A stretch of DNA of 34,754 bases from Candidatus Peregrinibacteria bacterium CG1_02_54_53 (GTDB lineage: Bacteria; Patescibacteriota; Gracilibacteria; Peribacterales; Peribacteraceae): positions 1-34,754 of the forward strand of contig MNWP01000042.1 in NCBI GenBank assembly GCA_001872575.1, in the 5' to 3' direction. This document shows, one piece after another, positions 720 to 34,682 of this stretch. Within the stretch, counting starts at the first letter, position 1; each line of letters opens with the position of its first letter. The notes beneath the pieces are model-generated. The model made no database searches and was not told the origin of the DNA. It saw nothing but the letters and a program-made list of their open reading frames with translations. The position numbers were made by a program, and so were the translations under genes.

Positions 720-2234
720 ATGGCGTCCATGCGTCGTGGGTTTTTTGCACTCCTGATCCCTTTACTCCTCGCAATTCCGGCCTTCGCCGCAGAAGGCGAT
801 CTTCCGGAACGAACGGAGCCGGTTGCCATCATCTCCGGTCCGTCGGATATTGCTGTGGGACGCACGCTCGTTCTCGATGCGTCGGTCAGTAACGGCCTTG
901 GAGAGAATACGACCTATCGCTGGTATCGTGATGCTTTGGCGGCACCGATCAGCCGATCTGTTGAGGCCGTCTATACCCCCGAGCGCTCGGGCAAGGTCGT
1001 ATTCCGATTGGTAATCGTCACCACCATCGATGGAAAAGAAATCGAGATCACCGCGGAAAAATCCGTAACGGTCTATCGCCGGAAAATCGTTCTCATTGCC
1101 GACAGTTCCGTCTCTCGAGAAAAACTTAAAATCCACTCCCAGATTGCCGCCTCATCCGGAGTATTTTTGCAAATCGTTCAGCCTCAGGCCTCTATTCCGC
1201 TCGACAGTGAACAGGCGCTTGTGGCGGCGATTACCGATCTTGGTGACGGAATCGTCGGAGCAGAATCCACGATTCTGTGGGCCGACGGTCTTACGGGCGT
1301 ACAGGCGCTGAGCACGGCCACCGAAAACGCACCGAATCGTCGTTCTGCAATCGGTAATCAGACGATCATTCTTATTACGAAAAGCAGCATTCATCGATTG
1401 GCACGAACCCTGCGTGGCTACTTTACATTACTGCGTCCGCAAAAAATCATCGTCACCCGCCCCGAGGCCATCAATCCGCTTGCCGCTGCGCTGGATCTGG
1501 AAAGCGGCCTCAGAGAACTGCAGCAACGCGATATTGATCTTGCGATTGTCGATGCCACTACCACAGCCATCCGCCCGTGGAATCTGCTGTCCTGGTTCGT
1601 GAATGCGATGTTGATGCGGGGAGTGCCCAGTCAGACGATCACCCTCCTGCTCATGTTGCCCGTTATTGCAACGATTCTTGCATTCTTCAAGCAGGTCATC
1701 GGCTTAACGACGTTCGGTCTCTACACGCCATCCATTGTCGCTCTGAGCTTTTTGGCTCTCGGCTGGAAGATCGGATTGGTATTTCTCATTGCCATTCTCG
1801 TTGCCGGATACACGACAAGAAGTATCATGCGACGTTGGCGGCTCCTCTACATCCCGAAGGTTGCCATCATCATCACCGTCGTCAGTATTACCTTGCTCAT
1901 TCTCGTAGGGCTGGCCTCGGATGTGGGTATCACGTTTGCCCGTGATACGATTTTCGTTCTTCTGATCATGTCGACTCTTTCGGAGAATTTCCTGAATGCA
2001 AAATCAGAAGCGGGATGGAAGGGGGCGGTTATCGGCATTGGAGAGACCATTCTCGCTTCATTACTCTGTGTGGCGATCATGCAATGGTCCACGTTGTTAT
2101 CGTTGATTCTTGCGTATCCGGAACTGATCTTCTTCACGATCGCGATCAATGTTGCCCTTGGTCGATGGACAGGTCTGCGACTCATTGAGTATGTCCGTTT
2201 TCGGGAAGTGTTTCGACATATGCAGGAAGAGTGA
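720..2234 (+). CDS. PKD-like domain + seven-transmembrane protein of the 7TM/inactive-transglutaminase family
   Basis: 504 aa from the ATG at 720. An N-terminal Sec signal (FFALLIPLLLAIPAFA) is followed by an Ig/PKD-like beta domain (about residues 30-115) with YRWYRD and ERSGKVVFRL signatures. Next is an alpha/beta domain of unknown type (about 115-295), and then about seven hydrophobic helices. The helix block containing FGLYTPSIVALSFLALGW and the basic loop RSIMRRWRLLYIPK resembles the 7TM domain usually fused to a non-catalytic transglutaminase in proteobacteria. Here I see no transglutaminase fold; the PKD and alpha/beta domains take its place. In those bacteria the gene commonly neighbours a RimK-related ligase, and here the next gene is exactly that, 71 bases downstream. 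It is probably a sensor or carrier at the membrane for the ligase product; that role is inference. Confidence 0.75.
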   Translation: MASMRRGFFALLIPLLLAIPAFAAEGDLPERTEPVAIISGPSDIAVGRTLVLDASVSNGLGENTTYRWYRDALAAPISRSVEAVYTPERSGKVVFRLVIVTTIDGKEIEITAEKSVTVYRRKIVLIADSSVSREKLKIHSQIAASSGVFLQIVQPQASIPLDSEQALVAAITDLGDGIVGAESTILWADGLTGVQALSTATENAPNRRSAIGNQTIILITKSSIHRLARTLRGYFTLLRPQKIIVTRPEAINPLAAALDLESGLRELQQRDIDLAIVDATTTAIRPWNLLSWFVNAMLMRGVPSQTITLLLMLPVIATILAFFKQVIGLTTFGLYTPSIVALSFLALGWKIGLVFLIAILVAGYTTRSIMRRWRLLYIPKVAIIITVVSITLLILVGLASDVGITFARDTIFVLLIMSTLSENFLNAKSEAGWKGAVIGIGETILASLLCVAIMQWSTLLSLILAYPELIFFTIAINVALGRWTGLRLIEYVRFREVFRHMQEE

Positions 2235-2305
2235 TGCTCAAGATTGTTCCCAGCTCTGCAATGTTACTCGGCGAAATGAATCAGGTTGTACTCTGATCAT
2301 GCACT

Positions 2306-4666
2306 ATGCTTCTCCCCTTGTCAGACCACGGCATTCTCGGACTCAATGCGCGTAGTTTGCTCTATATTAAGCCGTTTAATCCGAAGAAGGCGATGGCGTT
2401 TGCCGATGACAAGATGCGGACGAAGATGTTTCTGGGCTCACGGGGCATTCCTGTGGCGAGAGTTTTTGCACGCATTGAAAATCGACGGCAGTTACGTTCC
2501 TTTAACTTCGACAGCCTTCCCGATGAGTGCGTTCTCAAGCCGAACGAAGGATACGGCGGCGACGGCATTCTTGTGCTGCGAGGCAGACGGGGAAAAATCT
2601 TTTTAGAGAACGGGAAAATTCCCGTTTCTGAGCGCGATCTTCGTGATCACATTGAAGATATTCTTGATGGAAAGTATTCCGTATCCGGAGTGCGAGATAT
2701 TGCGTTCTTTGAGCAAATTCTCACTCCCGATAAGTGCTTTGCCCGTTTTCGTCCCGTAGGCCTGCCGGACATTCGTGTCATTACATTCAATCTTGTTCCG
2801 GTCATGGCGATGCTGCGCATTCCGACGGCTGAGAGCAGAGGCAAGGCAAACGTGCACTTAGGGGGTATCGGTATTGGTCTTGATATTGATAAAGGCACCA
2901 CGACACACGCAGCTCAATACAACCATATTATCCACAACCTTCCGCACGGGGTGCCGTCAGCCGGAATAGAGATTCCTTTTTGGGACGATATTCTCTTGAT
3001 CTGCTCTCGCATCCAGCAGCTCACGAATATTGGATACCTCGCCGTTGACATCACCATTGATGCCGACCTGGGCCCCACGCTTCTTGAGGTGAATGCCCGT
3101 GCAGGATTGATGGTTCAGGTTGCCAACCTTGCTCCGTTGCGCAGCCGACTTGAACGTGTGGCCGGTCTTAAAGTCAGCTCTCCCGAAAAAGGCGTTCGTA
3201 TCGGCAAAGAGTTGTTCGGCTTAAAGACCTCACGCATTGCTCCTGAGAAAAATCTCGTCACTTTGGGCACACGTGAAACAATTGAAATCGCCGGTGAAGG
3301 CAATACCGTTGAAATCGCCGTTCGCATCGATCCCGAACGCGAAAGGACCACTTTTCACCCTGAACTTATTGTTGAATTGCTTCGTCAGGAAGCCATCGAA
3401 AGTGCCGGAAATGATCGATATCGCGTGAAGTTTCTCTTGGGAGGAAAAAAAGTGCAGACCGCAGTGGATGTTGACACATTGCTCGGGCCGGAACGCGCGG
3501 TAATCGGACGGAGAGACTTGACTGGATTTTTGATCGATCCTCTTCGCACAAGAGCGGCTCAGAGCAAGTTATGCATCCGCCAGGATTTGCACGCCGTTGA
3601 TCGGCTACTCGCGAAGATCGATTCGACATTACCGGTTCTTCGTCTGGTCAAGCCGGTCAATCTGGAAGAGGAACGCTCACGAGCCGAGGCCGATCCTCTG
3701 TACCAACCACTTTTTCAGTATGCACCTCTACCTGATGATCTTGAAGATTTGCAAATGTCTCTTTCGACTGTCATTCAGGACTCATCTGATCTTGGGCAAT
3801 TGCTTGAAAAAAAGCGCAAAGAGCTGCTTCTGCGTCTGACAATGCTCGATGCCAGAGGAAAGGACGCAAAACAATTTACCGATGCCTCCCTTTCCTTGTT
3901 TGGCGAGATACGAGAGTCGGATGTGCAGGAGGCAATGGCGAATTTTCTTCCTCGACCGTCTAAGCCTCCAAAGGCTGATGAATCTGCTTTGAGCGCCGCA
4001 CAGGCGCAACAGCTGTTACAGGATGCCATTGATCATTATGGGTTGCACGATTGGCATTGTGTTCTTCGCGATTCGATCGTGGCCGATTGCACAGTAGGAG
4101 GTCGGACAATTGCTCTCCGTAGCCGGGCAAAATTTACGAAGTCTCATGTGGATGCTCTCATTGCCCATGAAATTGAGACGCATGCGATTACAGCCGAGAA
4201 CGGAACGCATCAGTCGTGGCACCTGCTTCGAAAAGGCACGGCGAACTATCTTACAACTCAGGAAGGACTTGCCATCTGGAATCAAAACCGCGTACTGCCC
4301 GCATGGCATATCAAGCGGTATCGACCTGCCCAATCCCTGCTTGCAGTCTCCTACGCGCAAACGCACAGCTTCAAAGATACGCGTCTTTACCTCGAAGAGA
4401 AGTTGGGATATCCGGTGCTCAAAGCGCTGAACAAGGCTATTGATGTCAAACGAGGTATCTCAGATACGTCGCAACCCGGAGCTTTTATTAAGGGTGCGGT
4501 ATATTTTCTTGGCCATCGCGCCATTGAGAGCTTTGTGAAGAACGATGGCGATCTTAAGCGACTCTATTGGGGAAAAGTGAGTATTGAAGATTTGTCGTTC
4601 ATTGAACGGATTCCCGACTTGCGACCACCCTTGCTGTTACCCGATTGGCTGAGAAGGGCTTCATAA
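2306..4666 (+). CDS. Fusion: RimK-related ATP-grasp ligase + degenerate RimB-like protease + DUF1704 (QEGLA) metallopeptidase
   Basis: 786 aa with three parts. Residues 1-290 are an ATP-grasp of the alpha-L-glutamate-ligase-homolog type: LGLNARSLLYI and FNPKKAMAFADDKMRTK at the N-terminus, CVLKPNEGYGGDGI for nucleotide binding, and LLEVNARAGL for the metal/ATP site. Residues about 318-412 resemble the RimB/ATP-dependent zinc (aspartyl-fold) protease family (start VTLGTRETIEI, end VIGRRDLTGFLIDP), but the catalytic DTGA is replaced by IDPER, so it is probably inactive. Residues about 480-786 are a DUF1704 domain with the HExxxH metal motif HEIETH (621-626) and TQEGLA (651-656). This family includes the eukaryotic tubulin tyrosine carboxypeptidase MATCAP. 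Ligase and peptidase in one chain suggest adding and removing an amino acid on a peptide or protein; the substrate is unknown. No clear Shine-Dalgarno precedes the ATG. Confidence 0.8.
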   Translation: MLLPLSDHGILGLNARSLLYIKPFNPKKAMAFADDKMRTKMFLGSRGIPVARVFARIENRRQLRSFNFDSLPDECVLKPNEGYGGDGILVLRGRRGKIFLENGKIPVSERDLRDHIEDILDGKYSVSGVRDIAFFEQILTPDKCFARFRPVGLPDIRVITFNLVPVMAMLRIPTAESRGKANVHLGGIGIGLDIDKGTTTHAAQYNHIIHNLPHGVPSAGIEIPFWDDILLICSRIQQLTNIGYLAVDITIDADLGPTLLEVNARAGLMVQVANLAPLRSRLERVAGLKVSSPEKGVRIGKELFGLKTSRIAPEKNLVTLGTRETIEIAGEGNTVEIAVRIDPERERTTFHPELIVELLRQEAIESAGNDRYRVKFLLGGKKVQTAVDVDTLLGPERAVIGRRDLTGFLIDPLRTRAAQSKLCIRQDLHAVDRLLAKIDSTLPVLRLVKPVNLEEERSRAEADPLYQPLFQYAPLPDDLEDLQMSLSTVIQDSSDLGQLLEKKRKELLLRLTMLDARGKDAKQFTDASLSLFGEIRESDVQEAMANFLPRPSKPPKADESALSAAQAQQLLQDAIDHYGLHDWHCVLRDSIVADCTVGGRTIALRSRAKFTKSHVDALIAHEIETHAITAENGTHQSWHLLRKGTANYLTTQEGLAIWNQNRVLPAWHIKRYRPAQSLLAVSYAQTHSFKDTRLYLEEKLGYPVLKALNKAIDVKRGISDTSQPGAFIKGAVYFLGHRAIESFVKNDGDLKRLYWGKVSIEDLSFIERIPDLRPPLLLPDWLRRAS

Positions 4667-4707
4667 ATATGTTGAGCTCGCTTGAAACCTACAAGCCCGG
4701 TTAAAGT

Positions 4708-5499
4708 TCACTCCGGACAGAACTGCTGTAGAAAAGCTTTAACGAGCTCTTCAAACAGGTGGTGAAATTCTTCAATTCTATTGGGGATGGGCTGCAGAGT
4801 ATCCAGATTGGCATAGAGACTTTCATTAATTTCAATCTGCATTCCGGGAACGAGAAAAGGCGGCATGCGACGACGGTGACAGTGGTGACCGAGAACGTAT
4901 TTTCCTGCATAGGGAAAATTGACGGAAACCGAATATCCGCGGTCTTGAAAGAAGTTTCGTGCAAAAATCGTGTGTTCCCTCGTGCACGTCGAGTAGTTCA
5001 CGTTGCCGATATTGATATCCGGCCGCAGCATCCCGCTGTCCGCTTTCAATTTCGGCCCTACGGGAAGATAGGAATGACAATCGAAGAGAAACTGTACATG
5101 GGGAATGATGGCGTCGATTTTACTGTGATAGGGGTCGTGATAGGTACGGATCATCTTTCCGGCAATTGCGCTGGAAGGATTGCGCTTGTATACCTTTTTG
5201 CCGTCCCATGTCGTGTGTACGATAACGCCTTCGGCTGCTTCTTTATACTCACTCGAAATATCATCGGGGGCACGATTGACATCAACGATGACCCGCGAAA
5301 CGTCGCTGACGACGGTGTGCACGTCGTCAATAGTGAATATTTCTTCCGTGAAGAGATCTGTGTAGTAGAGGAGCTCTTTTGGAGTGAGAGCAACATCATC
5401 CTTCACTTCATCCGGAACCTTTGACCCCGCATGGGGGATAGAGACGAGAACGGGACGAGGAGCGGTGGTGGACGGAGCAGCATCAGGAACAGATGACAT
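4708..5499 (-). CDS. N-formylglutamate amidohydrolase family protein (copy 1)
   Basis: 263 aa from the ATG at 5499; a longer start at 5604 would overlap the upstream channel gene by 120 bases. The family motifs are all visible: VSIPHAG near the N-terminus, VIVDVNRAPDD, FDCHSYLP (metal-binding His), and GMQIEINESLY near the C-terminus. The family (HutG2-like) hydrolyses amide bonds of N-acylated glutamate or aspartate using zinc. No histidine-degradation genes are nearby. The association with an ATP-grasp/DUF1704 protein and a glutamate-cysteine ligase relative suggests it acts on a glutamyl amide made by this cluster. It overlaps the end of the MscS-like gene by 17 bases, so the two are probably co-transcribed. 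Its 3' end converges on the ligase fusion. Confidence 0.85.
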   Translation of the reverse strand: MSSVPDAAPSTTAPRPVLVSIPHAGSKVPDEVKDDVALTPKELLYYTDLFTEEIFTIDDVHTVVSDVSRVIVDVNRAPDDISSEYKEAAEGVIVHTTWDGKKVYKRNPSSAIAGKMIRTYHDPYHSKIDAIIPHVQFLFDCHSYLPVGPKLKADSGMLRPDINIGNVNYSTCTREHTIFARNFFQDRGYSVSVNFPYAGKYVLGHHCHRRRMPPFLVPGMQIEINESLYANLDTLQPIPNRIEEFHHLFEELVKAFLQQFCPE

Positions 5500-6319
5500 A
5501 GGAATGCCGGAAGAAGTGTGATGCAGAGAGAACAGTTCGTTTTCCGTCGTGTTCCAGCACAACAGAGGTCGCGGTGAATTCGCGAACAACTCCTCGCTTT
5601 TCATCTATCTCGACAGTGGTTCCGATGCCGAAGGTCCCTTTGAGTTGGCGGCACAGAAAGAAGTTTTCGAGGAATGGCCGTGCGCCGATAATGCATCCAA
5701 GGCCCATGAGCCCAATGAGCACCGCCACCATGATGGACAGGTTCGTCGCGAGAAAAGAGAGATCCAATCCCAGTTGCCCCAAGGCGAAGAGGGAAACCAG
5801 AACAAAAATGATCCAGTGTACGATGTTTCCAAGGGTGTTTTCGTGTCCTGTTCCCACGCGTTGAATCACTTGCACGGTGGTCGCATGCAGAAATCTGGCA
5901 CCTAATCCGCCAATGATAAGAATGATAAATGCGGTGACGAGATTGGGCAAATAGCCGGCAATGGTGCTGAAGAATGTCGATAACCAGATCAAGCCGATGA
6001 CATCGGATGATAACTTGAGCGTGTAAACACCAATGAAGGCTGCAAGAAGCAGGGCGAGAATTTCCACCGGGTTGCGATGCATTCCCAGCATACGAAGCAA
6101 ATCGTGCAACGGCGTTTTTGCAATGAGTTTGTCAATCGCAAAGAAGCGCATCACGCGCACGCAGATGGCGTACACGAGTACGGCAATTATCCATCCGACA
6201 ACCAGTACTGCTATTGCCAGCAGCGCCTGAGACAAGTTGATCGAGGTGTCGCCGAAAATCTGCTGCATGGAGTTCGTGACCAAAGGTCGAACGTACTCCT
6301 GGATTTCATGGAGTGTCAT
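5483..6319 (-). CDS. MscS-like mechanosensitive channel / conserved-TM-helix membrane protein
   Basis: 278 aa with about five hydrophobic helices. Residues about 30-150 contain three to four TM segments, including LVTAFIILIIGGLGARFL, typical of the CmpX/conserved TM helix group. The pore-like helix (LSIMVAVLIGLMGLGCIIGARPFLENFF) is followed by a small beta domain (GIGTTVEIDEKRGVVREF and TSVVLEHDGKRTVL) like the MscS beta domain. It is short compared with full MscS and ends just after the beta domain, lacking the cytoplasmic alpha/beta cage. It lies between two N-formylglutamate amidohydrolase genes on the same strand, so it may release or admit a small metabolite handled by them; that is inference. 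The 3' end overlaps the downstream hydrolase gene by 17 bases. Confidence 0.8.
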   Translation of the reverse strand: MTLHEIQEYVRPLVTNSMQQIFGDTSINLSQALLAIAVLVVGWIIAVLVYAICVRVMRFFAIDKLIAKTPLHDLLRMLGMHRNPVEILALLLAAFIGVYTLKLSSDVIGLIWLSTFFSTIAGYLPNLVTAFIILIIGGLGARFLHATTVQVIQRVGTGHENTLGNIVHWIIFVLVSLFALGQLGLDLSFLATNLSIMVAVLIGLMGLGCIIGARPFLENFFLCRQLKGTFGIGTTVEIDEKRGVVREFTATSVVLEHDGKRTVLSASHFFRHSYVICS

Positions 6320-6399
6320 GGAACGCAGTATATACCGTTTTTTTCTTCAATGGCAGATTGTGAAATACCCGTTATCCTTGTCCATCCTCGGCATTGCCC

Positions 6400-7170
6400 T
6401 TAAGACAGATCCGTGACGTGTTTGACGATGTGCAAATTGCTCCATGAGCAGAAGGCATCAAGCAATTCGTCGATCTGGCGATGGAGGGTGAGGATTGTAT
6501 CCTCTTTGGCTTCCAGAGATTGCTCGTCTAAATACAATGAGCGTTTGATCTCGATCTGTATGCCGGGAATTCGAAAGCGATTGGCATACGATCCGATAAT
6601 GTATCGTCCCGCAAAGGGGTTGTTCACGGCAACTCGGTATCCGCACTGTTCGAAATACGTGCGAAAGAACTTCGTGGTTTCTGCGGAGCATGCGGAATAC
6701 TCCCGATTTCCTAAAACGATATCCGCCCGAGAAATACCCGGTGACCGGCTGGAAGGGGCCCCCGATGACCACATCGAATGTCCATCGATAAGGAATGATG
6801 CGCCATTCAATTGCCGATGGAGCTTGTCATGAAAAGGCTTATGAAAACGCTTCACCCACTCTTCCATCGTGGCGAGATCAGGATCGTTCTCAAATGTATC
6901 TAATCCGTGCGATTGGCTGAGCATGACGACTCCTTGTGCACGCATGTGTCCTTCGGTATAGATTTCGTCCGGGGCGCGGTTCGGATCGGAAATGACTCGT
7001 GAAAATTCCGCCAGCACCACCCGAGCTTCGGGAACGGCATAGATGCGATCCGTGAAGAGATCGGGCTCATGCAGCAGCGTCTCATCGCTGAGGGGGATCA
7101 TGCTCCGTATTGCAGGGGGAATGAATGTGCCTGCATGAGGGATGGAAATGACAATTTCATTGCGTTGCAT
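6400..7170 (-). CDS. N-formylglutamate amidohydrolase family protein (copy 2)
   Basis: 256 aa. Motifs in order: VISIPHAGTF, VISDPNRAPDEI, FLIDGHSMW, and GIQIEIKRSLYLDE. They match copy 1 in order and spacing, but the two proteins are clearly diverged paralogues, and copy 2 has a longer variable C-terminus. The catalytic and metal-binding histidines and acids appear intact. It is first in a minus-strand run with the MscS-like gene (81 bases downstream) and copy 1. Its start is only 34 bases from the divergently read glutamate-cysteine-ligase-like gene, so the two probably share a control region. Keeping two copies suggests different acyl-glutamate substrates or a heteromer. Confidence 0.85.
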   Translation of the reverse strand: MQRNEIVISIPHAGTFIPPAIRSMIPLSDETLLHEPDLFTDRIYAVPEARVVLAEFSRVISDPNRAPDEIYTEGHMRAQGVVMLSQSHGLDTFENDPDLATMEEWVKRFHKPFHDKLHRQLNGASFLIDGHSMWSSGAPSSRSPGISRADIVLGNREYSACSAETTKFFRTYFEQCGYRVAVNNPFAGRYIIGSYANRFRIPGIQIEIKRSLYLDEQSLEAKEDTILTLHRQIDELLDAFCSWSNLHIVKHVTDLS

Positions 7171-7204
7171 TGGTGCAATTCTAGCAGAGTGTTACTCTAT
7201 CGAT

Positions 7205-8554
7205 ATGGTTGCCCCTGACTCTGTCACGATTCGCTCTCTCGATGAAATCGTTCAATATTACCGTTCCATCAATCCCGCCCGTAATCTGTTCGTCGGTATT
7301 GAGTGGGAGCGTTCCGGCGTTTTCGCAAAAACGCTTGAACCCGTACAGTACGCAGGTCCGCAAGGATACAACGCCGTATTACATAAGCTTGTCGATGAAG
7401 TCGGCTGGGAAATTGTGCAACATGAAGGAGAGGATATCTACGAGCTTCAGCGCGGTCAGACACGCATTACCATTGAGGGAGATGGCAGACTGGAGCTTGC
7501 GGGTTCTCCGCAGGAGATCGTGCACGACCTTGCCCGCGAGTTTCGCATTCACAGTCATGAGGTTGAAGAAATAGGAAAGGCACTGGGCATTACGTGGATG
7601 CCGATGGGTTTGCAGCCTCTGCATTCCAATGAACAGATTTCTTTGGTCGGCAAAGCGCGCTACTCAATTTTTAAGGATGTCGGCGACCCCGATCTCATGG
7701 CGACAATGACCCGACGCACGAACGGACTTACGGCCAATCTCAGTTTCACCAATGAAGAGAATGCCATTAAAAAGGCCCAGACGGCGTTTCGCGTTCTTCC
7801 TATCGTGAGTGCGATGTTTGCCTGCAGCCCGTTTGATCAGGGCGCACTGACCTCCAATTTGGATCTGCGTCGCAAGGTGATTCAGAATCATTGTCCCGAG
7901 CGCACAGGCATTCCCCCAAACATACTGGATGATGGTTTCTGCCTGAAGGATTGGTTGAAATACTATGCCGACCTCCCGGTGATTTTGGTATCGGAGAACA
8001 GCAAGCAGGTGCGTCCTGACGGGGATTTTTCGTTCCAGCAGTGGATGGAAAACGGCTATCGTGATCGCTTTCCGACATTAAAAGATTTTGATCAGCACAT
8101 CAAAACAACGTGGTCAGATATGAGATTGCGTCCTGCGTATCTTGAGTATCGCGTTGCAGACAGCGTTCCGTTCCGTTCCGTCCTCGCGCTGCCTGCCCTG
8201 ATGAAGGGGCTGCTGTTCGACTCTGACAGCTGGAGGACAGTGGCGGAACTGACAGAGGATTGGACGTATGAGGAGATCATCGATATGGACAGACGATCCT
8301 GGACAGGGGGCCTGTCGACGGATGTGCGAGGGGTGAGTTTACGCATGTACGCTCAAGAAGCGCTTCTGCTCGCCAATGAGAAGCTTCGAGGTTTCAGCAG
8401 AATGAATGCGGAGAATGCAGATGAGCGCATTTACCTTCAGCCGCTCAAGGAGCAGATATTCATAAAGGAAGAGAGTTTTGCAGAAGAATTGAGTCGTCTG
8501 TTTACGACGGAATGGAACGGCAATATTCGTAATCTCCTTTCGTGGTGCGCCTGA
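7205..8554 (+). CDS. Glutamate-cysteine ligase, plant/alphaproteobacterial (GCS2-related) type
   Basis: 449 aa from the ATG at 7205. An in-frame ATG at 7142 lies inside the divergent neighbour and is unlikely. Signatures: VGIEWERSG (glutamate/metal site), RITIEGDGRLELAGSP (the ExSG-like segment of the ligase fold), EEIGKALGITWMPMGLQP, and NGLTANLSFTNEENA. The length fits the plant-type gamma-glutamylcysteine synthetases (about 450 aa). The family joins glutamate to an amine using ATP. No gshB is present in the window, so glutathione synthesis cannot be concluded. With a RimK-like ligase and amidohydrolases beside it, the enzyme may start a gamma-glutamyl peptide specific to this cluster. Confidence 0.85.
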   Translation: MVAPDSVTIRSLDEIVQYYRSINPARNLFVGIEWERSGVFAKTLEPVQYAGPQGYNAVLHKLVDEVGWEIVQHEGEDIYELQRGQTRITIEGDGRLELAGSPQEIVHDLAREFRIHSHEVEEIGKALGITWMPMGLQPLHSNEQISLVGKARYSIFKDVGDPDLMATMTRRTNGLTANLSFTNEENAIKKAQTAFRVLPIVSAMFACSPFDQGALTSNLDLRRKVIQNHCPERTGIPPNILDDGFCLKDWLKYYADLPVILVSENSKQVRPDGDFSFQQWMENGYRDRFPTLKDFDQHIKTTWSDMRLRPAYLEYRVADSVPFRSVLALPALMKGLLFDSDSWRTVAELTEDWTYEEIIDMDRRSWTGGLSTDVRGVSLRMYAQEALLLANEKLRGFSRMNAENADERIYLQPLKEQIFIKEESFAEELSRLFTTEWNGNIRNLLSWCA

Positions 8555-29393: not shown

Positions 29394-30338
29394 ATGCCCG
29401 TTAAGTCCCCTGCACCGGCTGTAACCCCCCTCGCGAGTGCCGTAGAGCGCTATTTAGTCTTCCTCCGGAGCGAACAGAACAAGTCACCACTGACGATAGA
29501 CTCGTACCGGCAGTCTTTGGCCCTGTTTCAGAAATTATCGAAGCTTGAATCCCCTGCTGAAATTAACAAAGCCACCATCCGCATTTTTAAGAGTAATTTG
29601 CACATGTATCGCACTGCGCACGAACAAGAAGTTATGGTTCGTACCAAGAACCACCACTTGACGGTACTGCGTGCTTTCTTGCGTTATCTTATTTCCGAGG
29701 AGGAGATGGATTGCTACCCGCCCGATCGCGTCACACGGTTCAAAGAAGACCAGCGCAAGGTGAAAGTCCTCTTTCATGACGAGCTGGAGCGCCTGCTTGC
29801 TGCACCTGATACCGATACCCGCAATGGCAAGCGCGATAAGGCGATCCTGGAGCTCTTCTTCTCTACCGGTCTTCGTTTAACGGAGCTCAAGAGCCTTAAC
29901 CGTAAGGACCTCAATTTCACGACGCGTGAGACCTCGGTTAAGGGTAAGCGTGGCAAAGTGCGGGTGGTCTTTCTTACTGATCGCGCAGTCGATGCCCTCA
30001 AAGCCTATTTGGAAAGCCGCATGGATCACCTCTCCCCTCTCTTCATTCGCAATCACGAGCAGGCTCTCGAAGTCATGCCTCCGGGTGAGGAATATCGCCT
30101 GTCGCGTATTTCGATCTACAACATCGTCAAAAAATACGCCCTCAAGGCCGGAATCGTCTCTGACCCCTCTCCGCATACCCTTCGTCACTCCTTTGCGACC
30201 GATCTACTGCGTAATGGGGCGGATTTGAGGAGCGTGCAGGAGATGTTGGGTCATAAGGACCTGAGTACAACGCAGATTTATACACATGTCACCAATCCCC
30301 AATTAAAAGAAGTTCATAAAAAATTCCACGGTAAATAG
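29394..30338 (+). CDS. Xer-type tyrosine recombinase
   Basis: 314 aa. The N-terminal SAM-like core-binding domain (about 12-105: LASAVERYLVFLRSEQNKS, LTVLRAFLRYLI) is followed by the catalytic domain with all active residues: Arg161 (STGLRLTEL), Lys183 (VKGKRGK), His261 and Arg264 (HTLRHSFAT), His287 (LGHKDLS), and nucleophile Tyr296 (TQIYTHVT). The protein is of XerC/XerD size. The last residues, HKKFHGK, are encoded by a sequence that itself looks like a Xer site (30309-30336). A dif-like palindrome lies upstream and cassette-like genes with copied 3' ends lie downstream. It may be the chromosome dimer resolvase, a cassette integrase, or both. Confidence 0.92.
   Translation: MPVKSPAPAVTPLASAVERYLVFLRSEQNKSPLTIDSYRQSLALFQKLSKLESPAEINKATIRIFKSNLHMYRTAHEQEVMVRTKNHHLTVLRAFLRYLISEEEMDCYPPDRVTRFKEDQRKVKVLFHDELERLLAAPDTDTRNGKRDKAILELFFSTGLRLTELKSLNRKDLNFTTRETSVKGKRGKVRVVFLTDRAVDALKAYLESRMDHLSPLFIRNHEQALEVMPPGEEYRLSRISIYNIVKKYALKAGIVSDPSPHTLRHSFATDLLRNGADLRSVQEMLGHKDLSTTQIYTHVTNPQLKEVHKKFHGK
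30309..30336 (+). other. Xer-like site A inside the recombinase 3' end (attI-like)
   Basis: 11-6-11 layout: left arm GAAGTTCATAA, centre AAAATT, right arm CCACGGTAAAT. It overlaps the codons for HKKFHGK and the TAG stop. It is the most diverged of the copies at the DNA level, but the encoded residues equal those of site B. Confidence 0.55.
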
Positions 30339-30346
30339 CCATAATC

Positions 30347-30418
30347 CCCTGCTGGCTTAGGGAGGCCTGTCCGGCGTAGCGAAGCGGAGACGGATGCATA
30401 AGAAGTTTCATGGAAAAT
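30347..30418 (+). other. Stem-loop recombination-site unit B (attC/pdif-like)
   Basis: A small hairpin, CCCT/AGGG (30347-30362), has GGCTTA in its loop. Then comes GGAGGCCTGTCCG, a 17-base variable stretch, and a Xer-like site: CGGATGCATAA, centre GAAGTT, right arm TCATGGAAAAT (30391-30418). TCCG (30370) can pair with CGGA of the left arm. The segment 30354-30418 has exactly the same length (65) as 31071-31135, and the first 20 bases differ at one position. CAT at 30397 begins a reading of HKKFHGK and stop, the same ending as the recombinase. Confidence 0.75.
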
Positions 30419-30447
30419 AGCCCTATTGATGCTGTATAGACAACATA

Positions 30448-30475
30448 TTGACATTGTATGTACAAAGAGTACAAT
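30448..30475 (+). promoter_or_regulatory. Promoter/operator of the toxin-antitoxin operon
   Basis: TTGACA (30448-30453) and TACAAT (30470-30475) are 16 bases apart. The spacer holds TTGTA-TG-TACAA (30454-30465), an inverted repeat placed where an autorepressing antitoxin would bind. The ATG at 30458 lies between the two promoter boxes, so the antitoxin must start at 30482. Confidence 0.75.
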
Positions 30476-30481
30476 GAATCC

Positions 30482-30754
30482 ATGACAACCACTATTCAGG
30501 TGCGCACCAATCAGGCTACGAAAAAGACTGCTCAGCTGATTCTGGAAAAACTGGGCTTGGATTTGAGCACCGCGATTAATATCTATCTGGTCCAGATTAT
30601 TGAAAAGCAAGGAATCCCTTTTGAGGTGGTGACGGAAAACGGCATGACTCCTGCCGAAGAGAAGAAAATACTCAAAGAGATCGTATGGGCGAAGAGGCAT
30701 GGAAAGAGATACGCATCCGCAAAAGCATTGCATGATGCTATACTCAAGGAATGA
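30482..30754 (+). CDS. dinJ: DinJ/RelB-family antitoxin
   Basis: 90 aa from the ATG at 30482. MTTTIQVRTNQATKKTAQLILEKLGLDLSTAINIYLVQII is the ribbon-helix-helix DNA-binding start of RelB/DinJ antitoxins (beta strand TTTIQVR, then two helices). The C-terminal half (EEKKILKEIVWAKRHGKRYASAKALHDAILKE) would wrap the toxin. It binds YafQ-type toxin and represses its own operon, probably through the palindrome in the promoter spacer. It overlaps the toxin start by 4 bases. It is the only complete cassette between two Xer-like units. Confidence 0.88.
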   Translation: MTTTIQVRTNQATKKTAQLILEKLGLDLSTAINIYLVQIIEKQGIPFEVVTENGMTPAEEKKILKEIVWAKRHGKRYASAKALHDAILKE

Positions 30755-31038
30755 AGAGATACGCAGTCGTGGCGACAAAGCAGTACAAAAAGGACTACAA
30801 GATTTTGTGTAGAACAGGACATGATCTACGGAAACTCGATCATGTCATCGACACTCTGGCTGCAGGGAAAGAGCTACAAGTGAGGCATCGTGATCATACG
30901 CTTAAAGGCAAATTGCGCGGAACGCGCGAGTGCCATATCGGTTCCGATTGGCTGCTTAAGTACAAGAAGGAAGACAAAGAGTTGCTGCTCATTCTGCTGC
31001 GGACAGGAACGCACCGGGATGTTCTGGGGATAGAGTAA
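30751..31038 (+). CDS. yafQ: YafQ/RelE-family mRNA interferase toxin
   Basis: 95 aa. Matches the YafQ pattern: YKKDYKILCRTGHDLRKLD near the N-terminus, then HRDHTLKGKLRGTRECHIGSDWLLKYK and LLRTGTHRDVLG. The catalytic candidates of YafQ (His in RDHxL, His and Asp in CHIxxDW, and the late His in TGTH) are all present, so it is likely active as a ribosome-dependent mRNA endonuclease. It is translated with the antitoxin through an ATGA overlap. Toxin-antitoxin pairs are typical stabilising cargo of integron and pdif cassettes. Confidence 0.9.
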   Translation: MKRYAVVATKQYKKDYKILCRTGHDLRKLDHVIDTLAAGKELQVRHRDHTLKGKLRGTRECHIGSDWLLKYKKEDKELLLILLRTGTHRDVLGIE

Positions 31039-31061
31039 GTTACACGGAAAATGACACTACT

Positions 31062-31135
31062 CCTCCTATTGGCTTAAGGAGGCCTGTCCGCCGAAGCCTG
31101 GCGCAGGCGGATGCATAAGAAGTTTTATGGAAAGT
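31062..31135 (+). other. Stem-loop recombination-site unit C (attC/pdif-like)
   Basis: Hairpin CCTCC/GGAGG (31062-31082) has GGCTTA in its loop. Then TCCGCC (31087) can pair with GGCGGA (31106). The Xer-like site follows: CGGATGCATAA, centre GAAGTT (identical to B), right arm TTATGGAAAGT (31108-31135). CATAA-6-TTATG is the Xer core. The hairpin arms differ from unit B but still pair, as expected for conserved structure. CAT at 31114 begins a reading of HKKFYGK and stop. Just upstream (31036-31055), a CACGGAAAATG stretch resembles a partial right arm. Confidence 0.75.
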
Positions 31136-31220
31136 AGCAGGTAATCCTCTTAAAGTAGGGTGAGTTGAACAGAACATAGTTGGTTTCGTAGAGTATGATG
31201 TACCTGTCCCGCATACCACA

Positions 31221-32833
31221 ATGAGCGTTACATGGATTGGCAAATTAGATTTGCGTGCTGCTCTCAGGCGAATTCAAAAAGAGTCTAGACAAGGCAAGGA
31301 TTTTTGTTTAGATCCAATGAGATTCGAAGACTTATCGGACACAAGTGTTGCAGACAAACTTATTAAGAAGATCCTGAATGAATTAAATTCCCTATTTTTT
31401 GCTGGAGAGTTAATTTGTGCAGATGTTCCTAAGCAAAACTATGTATTGCGACCTGCAGCGAGACCCCTCATTAAAGATTGGATCCTTTATGATGCTCTCG
31501 TTCATTTTATTGTCTCTCAAATCTATAAAAACATCCCCGATCGTAGTTTCAGCTTTCCGAGATTTATTGATCTGGTTGAAGGAAAAAGGAGACCAAGCTC
31601 AATTGGTTATTGGAAGGATTTTGAAAATGAAGCTTTCAGGCATGGATCAAGTGGTAAATACAAATTCCTTCTGACGACAGATATCGTCTCTTTTTTGAGC
31701 ATGTCTCCCTTGGTGTGCTAAAGGATAGACTAAAGATGCTTTCAAATGACGACTGTTATTCACATGCTGTTGATTTCCTAATTAATGAACTCTTAATTAA
31801 GTGGTCATGTATTGGAAAAGTTAAAAGTTTTGGTCTACCTCAAGGCCCAAATGCTTCGATTGTTCTGGCCGATGTCTACTTATATTCTGTTGATAGAGCT
31901 ATGGAAAAGGCGGGAATTCAGTACTTTAGATATATGGACGATGTTAGGATTTTTGCCTTTGATAGACCTGGCCTCAAGAGAAATATGATTACTCTTGTGA
32001 GAGCATTAAGAGAGCTGAAGCTTAATTTAAATGCTAAGAAAACCTCGATATATGAAATTGAGGATTATGCAAAATTAAAGGGTGTTGTTGATCCAAAACG
32101 TGATTTGTTGAGTAAAATTGATAACATAATTAGGAGCGAGAAGGACGAGGAAATTGATAACATTAAACAGGATCTTATTGAATTGGGTGAAATTTCTATG
32201 AAAGAAGAAGGCACATTTTCTGGAAGACATTTCCATTTTTTTGTGCGTAGGATAGCGGATTTGATGAAGATGAATAAGCTAGATAAAGAGTATGTTATTT
32301 CTTTAACTGAAAAGTTATTGATCAGATTTGAAAGTGAGCATCATGAGTCATCTCTTATATCTTGGTTCCTAGTTGCAGCATCCTTATATATTGATTCTCT
32401 CAAAGCAGAGGTGCAGAAGTGGCTGATTAATTTTATTTGTGATGAGAATCGCAATATTTATGAATGGCAAGAAATGTGGGCTTTGGATACGATTAGACAA
32501 ATCGGCAAAATTTAACGTGCTGATTTGGATAGACTCAAAAAATTCTATTCCAGAAAGAATGAGCTTTGCGTAGCGCAGTTTATGCTTATAGCTGGCATGA
32601 GTGGTGATATTAAGGATAGAGAAGAAATATTAGAGATGCCCATTGGTGATGGAGATTTATGTCGCCCAAAAGCAGTAGCTCTCCAGGAATTAAATCAGGA
32701 TGTAGTTCAAAATTCCGGTTTTTATGTTCCTGAATATCTCAAGCAATATTTGGCCACGTTAAGGGTGCCAAAGTATGGATTTGTTTATGATTTAAAAATC
32801 GCAGGATTTGAAGAAGAGTTTGGAGGTTATTAA
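31221..32833 (+). pseudogene. Reverse transcriptase of the Abi/UG (defence-type) kind, interrupted twice
   Basis: Three pieces form one about 535-aa RT-like protein. Piece 1 (31221-31722) has RPAARPLIKDWILYDALVHF and leads into motif A. Piece 2 continues in the -1 frame with DIVSFFEHV (motif A), SFGLPQGPNASIVLADVYL (motif B), YFRYMDDVRIFA (YxDD catalytic motif) and LNLNAKKTS, and then a helical region to a TAA at 32513. The same frame goes on (DLDRLKKFYSRKNELC...) to 32833. The organisation of RT plus a helical C-terminal region resembles Abi and unknown-group RTs, many of which are anti-phage. The region is far more AT-rich than its neighbours, so it was acquired. The frame change lies on T TTT TTG (31691-31697). 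The later stop suggests decay, although programmed shifting is possible. Confidence 0.75.
31691..31697 (+). other. Slippery heptamer T TTT TTG at the RT frame change
   Basis: The heptamer is in the correct phase (TCT TTT TTG) for a -1 ribosomal frameshift, which restores motif A as SFFEH. The alternative is loss of one T from a seven-T run, by mutation or read error. Confidence 0.4.
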
Positions 32834-32835
32834 AT

Positions 32836-32912
32836 TGAGAGTTTATGGAGATAAATTATTTTTTAATACCCTATCATCACCGCTCACTCCCCCACCCCGC
32901 AGCTTAAAGGGG
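32836..32912 (+). other. Possible degenerate end unit of the RT cassette
   Basis: GAGAGTTTATGGAGATAAA (near 32837) resembles the right half of the Xer-like sites. CCCC-GCAGCTTAAA-GGGG (32895-32912) resembles the first hairpin of units B and C, including CTTA in the loop. The second hairpin and the CATAA arm are missing. It may instead be a terminator without a T-run. A TATAAT at 32917-32922 follows and may serve the next gene. Confidence 0.3.
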
Positions 32913-32964
32913 TACGTATAATCATAAATAGACAATCCCCCTCTCTGCGCATAGCATCTTCCTT

Positions 32965-33192
32965 ATGGATTACTCACACCTCCTCCTCCAATACCTCATC
33001 ACCTTCGGCTGGGCGCTGACCGGAGCAGTCTCTATGGCGCTCTCGCTCAGTATCCTGCTCAAGGTCTTCACGTGGATTACACCCATCGATGAGTGGAAGG
33101 AAATCGAGAAAGGGAACGTGTGCGTGGCGATCATCTTGGCGGCCGTAATCATAGGCACCGCGCTCGTGATCGGCCTCACACTCATGTCGTAA
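32965..33192 (+). CDS. DUF350 family small membrane protein
   Basis: 75 aa with two TM helices: [26 protein letters not shown] and [23 protein letters not shown]. The linking segment [16 protein letters not shown] is the conserved DUF350 loop (usually D-E-x-E-L-x-x-G-N-x-A-x-A). The family normally has two such repeats; this is a single-unit form common in CPR. Function is unknown. Its TAA overlaps the ATG of the next gene by one base (TAATG), so the two are translationally coupled. Confidence 0.85.
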
Positions 33193-33560
33193 TGAAAACT
33201 CTCTCTCGCATCATATTTGGCATAGCAGCAACGCTGCTTCTTAGGTCCCCTCTTGCCTACGCTCATTCCGGCAAAACGGATGCCAATGGTTGTCATACAG
33301 TAAAGAAGACCGGTGAGTACCACTGCCACGAGGGATCGGGCACAGCGAAATCCGCAAAGATTGAGGCGAAAACTTCTGCCCGTACGGACGCGCGGGGCAC
33401 GGCGAGCATTTTCTGCGGTGCGAATACCTACAATTGCTCGGACTTCTCAACTCATGCCGAGGCGCAGAGTGTGTACGAAACATGCCTGCAGGAGACCGGA
33501 AAAGACGTACACGGCCTCGATGGGGATGATGATGGCAGTGCGTGTGAGGATTTGCCGTAG
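33192..33560 (+). CDS. Secreted YHYH-motif + Excalibur calcium-binding protein
   Basis: 122 aa from the ATG at 33192. A signal peptide ([18 protein letters not shown]) is cleaved before [11 protein letters not shown]. The following [22 protein letters not shown] is a YHYH-type short motif. The C-terminal [19 protein letters not shown]...[17 protein letters not shown] is an Excalibur domain with the DxDxDGxxCE calcium loop. Excalibur domains occur in extracellular nucleases and surface proteins. Here there is no nuclease domain, so it may be a stand-alone surface or adhesion factor. It is coupled to the DUF350 gene. Confidence 0.85.
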
Positions 33561-33603
33561 AAAAAAGTGCGCATAATGAGTTTCATTGGAAGTAATCGTT
33601 TTT

Positions 33604-34023
33604 CTATCTTTGTGCTTCATAAACAGATCTGATTTTGCCAAGCGTCTTTTCCATATTGACGCTATTCATTTGGTGACACCAAATTCTTAAGACCTTCCAG
33701 CCTCTCTTCTTCAGAAATGCATTCACCTCCCTGTCCCGCACAATGTTTCTTTCGATCTTCTTGATCCAGAACTTCCGGTTCGACTTGATGTCCTTCCTTC
33801 TCTCCTCCCAGTCGTAACCGTGCCAAAACTCACTGTCAAAAAAAATGGCGATCTTCTTCGATTTATTTGCGGCATCCGGATTGCCGAAGATACCCTTGGG
33901 ATGTTTGCGAAATCGTATGCCCGCCTCTCTGAGCATCGCCCATCCCCTTTCCTCCACACCGGTTTTCTTTCCCCTTATTTTCGACATGATCTCGCTTCGT
34001 TTCTTCTTGGTGAAAATGTCCAT
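33604..34023 (-). CDS. vsr: Very short patch repair (Vsr) endonuclease
   Basis: 139 aa, the normal length. Motifs: DIFTKKKRSEIMSKIRGKKTGVE at the start, GNPDAANKSKKIAIFFDSEFWHGYDW with the catalytic Asp and the FWHG histidine, and NRKFWIKKIERNIVRDREVNAFLKKRGWKVLRIW. Vsr nicks T:G mismatches made by deamination of 5-methylcytosine. One zinc-site cysteine is retained near LRIWCHQ. It usually sits beside a C5-cytosine methyltransferase; none is inside the window, but the right edge is only 0.7 kb away. It is transcribed divergently from the HNH nuclease gene with 59 bases between them. Confidence 0.92.
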   Translation of the reverse strand: MDIFTKKKRSEIMSKIRGKKTGVEERGWAMLREAGIRFRKHPKGIFGNPDAANKSKKIAIFFDSEFWHGYDWEERRKDIKSNRKFWIKKIERNIVRDREVNAFLKKRGWKVLRIWCHQMNSVNMEKTLGKIRSVYEAQR

Positions 34024-34082
34024 TGCACACAGTATATATCTGTTTCTTGTATCTTTGCTTCAATGATTGGTAATCTGTTGCC

Positions 34083-34682
34083 ATGTCTGGAGCGAAGAGC
34101 CGTCTATTGGAATTCTTTCAGAATAACGTTGGCAAGTATTTTCCTTTGTCTGAATTGGCAAAGGTCGCTCAGGTTAGCGATTGGCCCAGGGTTATCAGAG
34201 CAATGCGGTTGAATGACGGATATGATATCGAGCACATCGCCAAGGGTCCCCATAAGGGATGCTATGTGATGCGATCTTTGAAAATGAATCCTGCCAAACC
34301 TCGCGGCGGCATCGATCAGAGAATCAGATATAGAATCTTACAGAGAGATGCTTCATGCTGTCAGCGTTGTGGCAGAGGAGTGAAAGAGAAAGTGAAATTA
34401 ATGGTGGATCATAAGATACCTGTTGAATGGGGCGGCGAAACAGTGGATGATAATTTGTGGACGCTTTGTGCGGAATGCAATCTTGGAAAAAAGAACTGGC
34501 TGTCCGATGAAAATTCGGAAGAGATGAAAGAAGTGATGAGCCAATCAAGCGGTATTAAGAGACTGGAGCGTTTTTTCGAACTTCATCCGCATGAGTTGCT
34601 TGAGCCTACACGGCTTGGAATCATCAGTGGCATTAGGGATTGGGAAAGAACGTTAAGACACATTATAGCCAGACCAATATAA
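34083..34682 (+). CDS. HNH endonuclease with N-terminal winged-helix-like region
   Basis: 199 aa. Residues about 5-65 look like a winged-helix DNA-reading domain (SRLLEFFQNNVGKYFPLSELAKVA...RVIRAMRLNDGYDI). The HNH domain follows: RYRILQRDASCCQRCGR (first CxxC), LMVDHKIPVEWGGETVDDNLWTLCAECNLGKKN (catalytic DH, conserved N, second CxxC). Four cysteines form the zinc site. A C-terminal helical part (about 165-199) follows. Next to vsr it could be the restriction enzyme of a type II system whose methyltransferase lies beyond 34754. The 72 bases after it contain no gene start that I can support. Confidence 0.85.
   Translation: MSGAKSRLLEFFQNNVGKYFPLSELAKVAQVSDWPRVIRAMRLNDGYDIEHIAKGPHKGCYVMRSLKMNPAKPRGGIDQRIRYRILQRDASCCQRCGRGVKEKVKLMVDHKIPVEWGGETVDDNLWTLCAECNLGKKNWLSDENSEEMKEVMSQSSGIKRLERFFELHPHELLEPTRLGIISGIRDWERTLRHIIARPI

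Follow-up and report, generated by a model that had tools for sequence, protein, structure and literature searches.

The window, that is, the whole stretch of DNA analysed, is an entire contig of 34,754 bases out of a 1.37-Mb genome from the Patescibacteria. Six adjacent genes occupy an 8-kb block in its first part. An RloB-like seven-transmembrane (7TM) protein (720 to 2234, forward strand) is followed on the same strand by a fusion protein of 786 aa (2306 to 4666), in which an ATP-grasp domain resembling glutamate ligases, a degenerate retropepsin domain and a MATCAP/DUF1704 domain succeed each other in this order. The named close relatives of the fusion protein belong to Candidatus Peribacteria, Peregrinibacteria and Gracilibacteria. 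The reverse strand carries an N-formylglutamate-amidohydrolase-like protein (FGase-1; 4708 to 5502; PF05013, 153 bits), an MscS-like channel overlapping it (5483 to 6319; PF05552, 40.9 bits) and a second amidohydrolase-like protein (FGase-2; 6400 to 7170; PF05013, 150 bits), which lies head-to-head with a forward-strand GCS2-family ligase (7205 to 8554; PF04107, 88.6 bits). Positions 720, 5502 and 7205 are likely start codons, the second being placed from homologue alignments. The NCBIfam msc model matched the channel with E 9e-4, short of its cut-off, and the GCS2-family ligase comes nearest to TIGR01436, whose cut-off of 463 bits it misses with a score of 239.9 bits. Nearly all of the families named in the preliminary description were confirmed by Pfam and NCBIfam, including the arrangement of an MscS-like channel between two amidohydrolases. 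The RimK-related ATP-grasp and DUF1704 are both present as parts of the one fusion protein, and the RimB-like protease is not a gene of its own but the middle domain of this protein, degenerate and homologous at the profile level only.

The RloB-like protein comprises a signal peptide, a PKD-like domain, an alpha/beta domain and a C-terminal 7TM_transglut region. The C-terminal 7TM region of RloB is recognised in residues 312-504 (PF14402, 92.6 bits); the NF052267 RloB model covers residues 311-505 only and scores below its 900-bit cut-off. Neither Pfam nor NF052267 detected the inactive transglutaminase domain that forms the N-terminus of RloB, although a remote relation may exist, and in the AlphaFold2 model (pLDDT 82.5, with PKD matches) the PKD and alpha/beta domains occupy its place. 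Comparison with solved structures returned PKD domains and weak alpha/beta matches only, and the matches in a viral library were mostly Ig/PKD-like.

In the fusion protein, residues 1-305 (2306 to 3220, forward strand) form an RloC/RimK-like ATP-grasp domain (PF14397, 188 bits; TIGR02291, 230.8 bits, below its full-length cut-off of 314). The ATPgrasp_ST/TIGR02291 and MATCAP/DUF1704/TIGR02421 models match in the same polypeptide, and the window shows a TIGR02291-type ATP-grasp adjoining an RloB-type gene. A phmmer search of the ATP-grasp part against the PDB gave no useful match, and fold comparison was required. In the AlphaFold2 model of the fusion (mean pLDDT 88.9), residues 9-290 adopt the RimK/LysX/ArgX ATP-grasp fold, with Z scores of 18.1 to ArgX (3vpb) and 16.7 to RimK (5zct). 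At the other end, residues 445-786 (3638 to 4663, forward strand; PF08014, 147 bits; profile E 4.6e-25) constitute a MATCAP/TMCP-type metallocarboxypeptidase domain, whose fold is that of human MATCAP (7z5g; Z 26.5, rmsd 2.6 over 283 residues). Its metal and catalytic motifs are intact: HEIETH at 621-626 corresponds to HExxxH and QEGLA, with E653, to EEG. H621, E622, H626 and E653 are invariant in 31 relatives. By sequence and fold, the predicted trimming part of the fusion is related to the enzyme by which tubulin tails are edited in humans.

Between these domains, residues 306-435 (3221 to 3610, forward strand) have no Pfam match, and their homology becomes visible solely by profile-profile comparison. 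HHalign related them to gammaproteobacterial RloA (probability 97.6%, E 3.6e-12) and, more closely, to the fused retropepsins of other Patescibacteria (99.5%, E 2.2e-23). The VIA-align list contains no retropepsin row for this domain; the region is barely covered there, and this is no evidence against the assignment. The domain of RloA is present without the D-T/S-G motif of its active form, and D342-P-E stands in place of D-T-G. A search with PF05618 for a separate RimB/RloA protease gave 0 of 58 genomes (that of the window and 57 relatives). In two relatives without MATCAP, the retropepsins do pass the PF05618 cut-off, with 33.2 and 37.1 bits.

The block seems to be a recent feature of its host. 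TGT, IPPT, MgsA and other flanking genes are common to all four congeners, L21 is also shared, and a flanking gene of 253 aa occurs in two of the four. All four lack the block at the syntenic site, and the fusion, GCS2, MscS-like and FGase-1 genes were not found genome-wide in these same-genus genomes. The block has a GC content of 0.50, compared with 0.53-0.57 downstream in the window. Its absence from congeners together with the lower GC suggests that it was acquired or put together late in this lineage. At the contig end, a reverse-strand zinc-ribbon reading frame at 1-150 (NGSRYGKQLWKCTECGKQF) resembles the N-terminus of a transposase, and is followed by a GIY-YIG endonuclease gene at 260-541; the two form a possible mobile boundary of the block. 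Far downstream, positions 29394-34682 (GC 0.43-0.44) hold a phage-type integrase, a RelE-like toxin, an Excalibur protein, an HNH endonuclease and a partial reverse transcriptase (31715-32515), and this stretch looks like a mobile element. A search near the reverse transcriptase for the direct repeats of a diversity-generating element found a single 74-nt pair.

Iyer et al. (2009) reportedly predicted amidoligase clusters in which the same families occur together, and the preliminary description had taken the 8-kb stretch for such a cluster. Unlike a cluster of that type, the stretch consists of three separately conserved gene pairs that are united in this Peribacteria-like genome, and a conserved neighbourhood of all the parts is absent in relatives. 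The first pair comprises the 7TM gene and the ligase fusion. Of 58 class-level relatives, 44 have the fusion, mostly at full length, and within the family it occurs in 56 of 74 genomes and 34 of 40 genera; clustering recognised the 7TM gene in 29 of 39 fusion neighbourhoods. Within the family, the usual neighbours of this pair are, judged from their sequences, housekeeping genes for an L25-like ribosomal protein, a UvrC-like protein and a glycosyltransferase. In G017, G420 and G451 (L042, L277 and L278), a split or interruption separates the ligase part of the fusion from its MATCAP part. The fusion is also found in class relatives that decode TGA as an amino acid (L055, L057, L058 and L059). 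The second pair, MscS-like channel and FGase-1, is adjacent at eight of nine loci (G013, G014, G015, G018, G021, G026, G430 and G435). The third, FGase-2 head-to-head with GCS2, is also present in G430, G449 and G429. Stand-alone DUF1704 genes mark a second amidoligase locus: in L060 and L085 they stand beside an M20 peptidase and an ATP-grasp of another family (ATP-grasp_4), and in L080 beside a MurD-like ligase and an FGase. In G018 and G021, the MscS-FGase-1 pair takes the place of DUF1704 at this site, which lies between genes for an amidohydrolase and RNase J.

A single conserved 8-kb cluster was rejected on these grounds. Channel, FGase and GCS2 genes were not found within about 9 kb on each side of the fusion in any of 39 other neighbourhoods, GCS2 is restricted to 6 of the 74 family genomes, and across the same 74 genomes FGase-1 and the fusion do not co-occur significantly (18/20 versus 38/54; Fisher p = 0.13). 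With the pairs lying apart in this way, the set as a whole is scattered in relatives, whereas the core 7TM-fusion pair holds together. None of the other genomes examined showed the complete set. One further connection was observed in G435, an independent genus, in which the 7TM gene, the fusion, MscS and FGase-1 form one same-strand row (L269). If placed randomly, pairs 1 and 2 would meet twice among 18 genomes with a probability of about 0.0015, a figure that ignores shared ancestry. This four-gene row in a second genus indicates that the link between pairs 1 and 2 is probably functional. GCS2 is attached loosely to the rest of the set, and no other genome examined has it near the fusion.

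The whole block could alternatively encode one glutamyl-metabolite pathway, in which GCS2 and the ATP-grasp would make a gamma-glutamyl compound, the FGases and DUF1704 would edit it and MscS would move it. The adjacency of the six genes, their absence as a block from the syntenic site in the four congeners, the distinct GC content, the row in G435 and a weak co-occurrence of GCS2 with FGase-1 (p = 0.04; 74 family genomes) agree with such a pathway. The rarity of GCS2 and its separation from the fusion, the lack of association between FGase-1 and the fusion, and the 39 neighbourhoods devoid of the remaining genes nevertheless make it improbable.

The 7TM and fusion genes find their closest counterpart in the rlo operon of Pseudomonas aeruginosa, which encodes the RloA retropepsin, the RloB 7TM protein and the RloC ATP-grasp (PMC12239564). 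Both systems have an RloB-type 7TM gene directly followed by an RloC-type ATP-grasp gene, a homologous retropepsin domain and, as far as sequence allows prediction, a probable polyglutamate chemistry. They differ in that the retropepsin of the window is fused C-terminally to the ligase, degenerate and presumably cytoplasmic, that a MATCAP domain has been added, and that PKD and alpha/beta domains apparently stand in place of the transglutaminase part of RloB. RloA cuts runs of at least eight glutamates, and the rlo genes govern hypo-osmotic tolerance and survival in Pseudomonas (PMC12239564). RimK synthesises poly-alpha-glutamate, which RimB cleaves; RimB also lifts the ATPase activity of RimK fourfold and is required for detectable polyglutamate (PMC11957791). 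RimBK hybrids likewise join a ligase of ATP-grasp fold and a retropepsin on one chain, but their protease is N-terminal and active (PMC11957791). That order is absent from the window fusion, whose degenerate retropepsin follows the ligase and precedes MATCAP. The MATCAP domain shares its fold and its HExxxH and EEG motifs with tubulin carboxypeptidases of the MATCAP/TMCP (KIAA0895L) type, which strip C-terminal residues and polyglutamate (PMC10499314; PDB 7z5g); unlike these, it is bacterial, fused to a ligase and not associated with tubulin. RimBK hybrids are already known; no description of the three-domain ATP-grasp-retropepsin-MATCAP fusion was found in the partial literature searched.

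From these resemblances it seems fairly likely that the 7TM protein and the fusion constitute a version of the Rlo/Rim polyglutamate system found in Patescibacteria, with a metallo-exopeptidase having replaced the aspartic protease. We infer the substrates and activities from family membership, as well as the role of the dead domain and any osmotic role. The ATP-grasp domain would use ATP to extend a protein tail or free chains by L-glutamates, probably in alpha linkage, and the MATCAP domain of the same polypeptide would remove residues from the C-terminal end, so that a single predicted protein probably both adds and trims glutamate chains. The retropepsin, which would be the eraser in other Patescibacteria and is the separate RloA in Pseudomonas, has lost its catalytic D-T/S-G. 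Chain binding or ligase activation, comparable to the effect of RimB on RimK, is proposed as the reason for keeping it, and the dead domain has probably been retained as such a module. The RloB-like protein would couple the fusion to the membrane and to turgor, and the MscS-like channel and FGase-1 may serve in glutamate release and in the hydrolysis of N-acylated glutamyl products. Several points count against this Rlo/Rim-like scheme: RloA is secreted while the fused domains should be cytoplasmic, the window RloB-like protein is without a recognisable transglutaminase part and, as detailed below, some retropepsins keep their motif despite a MATCAP, independent pairs are few and the MATCAP tree is compatible with one fusion event. 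The making, editing and moving of a glutamyl compound had been anticipated in the preliminary description. For the 7TM-fusion pair, making and editing are well supported by the agreement of families, fold and catalytic motifs. Moving receives some support from the position of MscS and FGase-1 directly after the pair in G435, and from MscS channels being known glutamate exporters (PMC12541555).

The fusion might instead place a C-terminal residue other than polyglutamate on a specific protein, e.g., a ribosomal or cell-envelope one, as a ligase/carboxypeptidase switch of the TTL/MATCAP kind on tubulin. Human MATCAP initially became known for removing tyrosine as a carboxypeptidase, the TTL model gives a weak match (E about 0.05) to the ATP-grasp domain in relatives, and polyglutamate in these bacteria is a prediction only. 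This switch is nonetheless considered unlikely, given that the ATP-grasp finds its nearest matches in TIGR02291, a glutamate ligase-like model, and in the RimK/ArgX folds, and that its co-inherited partner is akin to polyglutamate-specific retropepsins.

In gammaproteobacteria, RloA, RloB and RloC are three separate genes, and many other Patescibacteria possess an ATP-grasp with a C-terminal retropepsin bearing D-T/S-G. The motif is retained in all 40 representatives without a nearby same-strand MATCAP and lost in 40 of 46 that have one fused or adjoining on the same strand (Fisher 2e-18, uncorrected for relatedness). With a fused MATCAP it is lost in 34 of 35, the exception being L110 (DSG). 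Where MATCAP is a separate gene beside it, D is changed to N in five cases (L203-L207). A separate same-strand MATCAP beside or near an intact D-T-G was found in five lineages (L200, L201, L202, L208 and L220), which shows that replacement is not automatic. Every MATCAP that partners a dead retropepsin retains HExxxH. In a further clade (L209-L211, L249, L250, L255, L258 and L259), the MATCAP gene is on the opposite strand at a distance of 3.6-7.4 kb, and the retropepsin carries a D-T-G-V/I variant (D-T-G-A in L250). A MATCAP-type part has apparently displaced an older, now dead protease in the lineage of the window. That the middle domain still cleaves by means of other residues, MATCAP being an added second enzyme and no replacement having occurred, is very unlikely: D342 is kept and five lineages have D-T-G intact beside MATCAP, but the D position varies among D, A, N, S, E and T in degenerate domains, their R and G-R-P-like columns are lost as well, and the D31E change inactivates RimB (PMC11957791).

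In the ATP-grasp tree, the motif losses fall in three clades. AU tests rejected uniting L203-207 (p = 0.022) or L218/219 (p = 1.6e-5) with the main, Gracilibacteria-type sequences in one clade, p-values weakened by the choice of groups after the tree had been seen. Among phylogenetically independent pairs for decay versus MATCAP, two agree, none oppose and five show no difference, a weak sign test (p = 0.5) with too few pairs. With the MATCAP tree, a single origin of the fusion was not rejected (p = 0.19), so that one apparent repeat could be due to recombination of the C-terminal part. It is a tentative idea, rather doubtful at present, that MATCAP repeatedly took over from the retropepsin in Patescibacteria. 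The outcome would be single-chain glutamylation cyclers, made of a ligase, a dead protease as activator and a tubulin-type deglutamylase, and tied to an osmotic response of the membrane and mechanosensitive channel.

The lineage unites a putative writer and eraser in one protein, and this points to a C-terminal glutamate chain as the likely product. Among the sequences examined, the old protease is dead solely where the putative new eraser is present, which amounts to a natural experiment. The fusion also provides a bacterial setting for MATCAP/TMCP, which work to date has treated as an enzyme of tubulin, and is part of a concrete and widespread system in Patescibacteria that is open to testing. 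If the repeated takeover by MATCAP is true, these bacteria would possess a counterpart of the eukaryotic cycle of tubulin glutamylation and deglutamylation.
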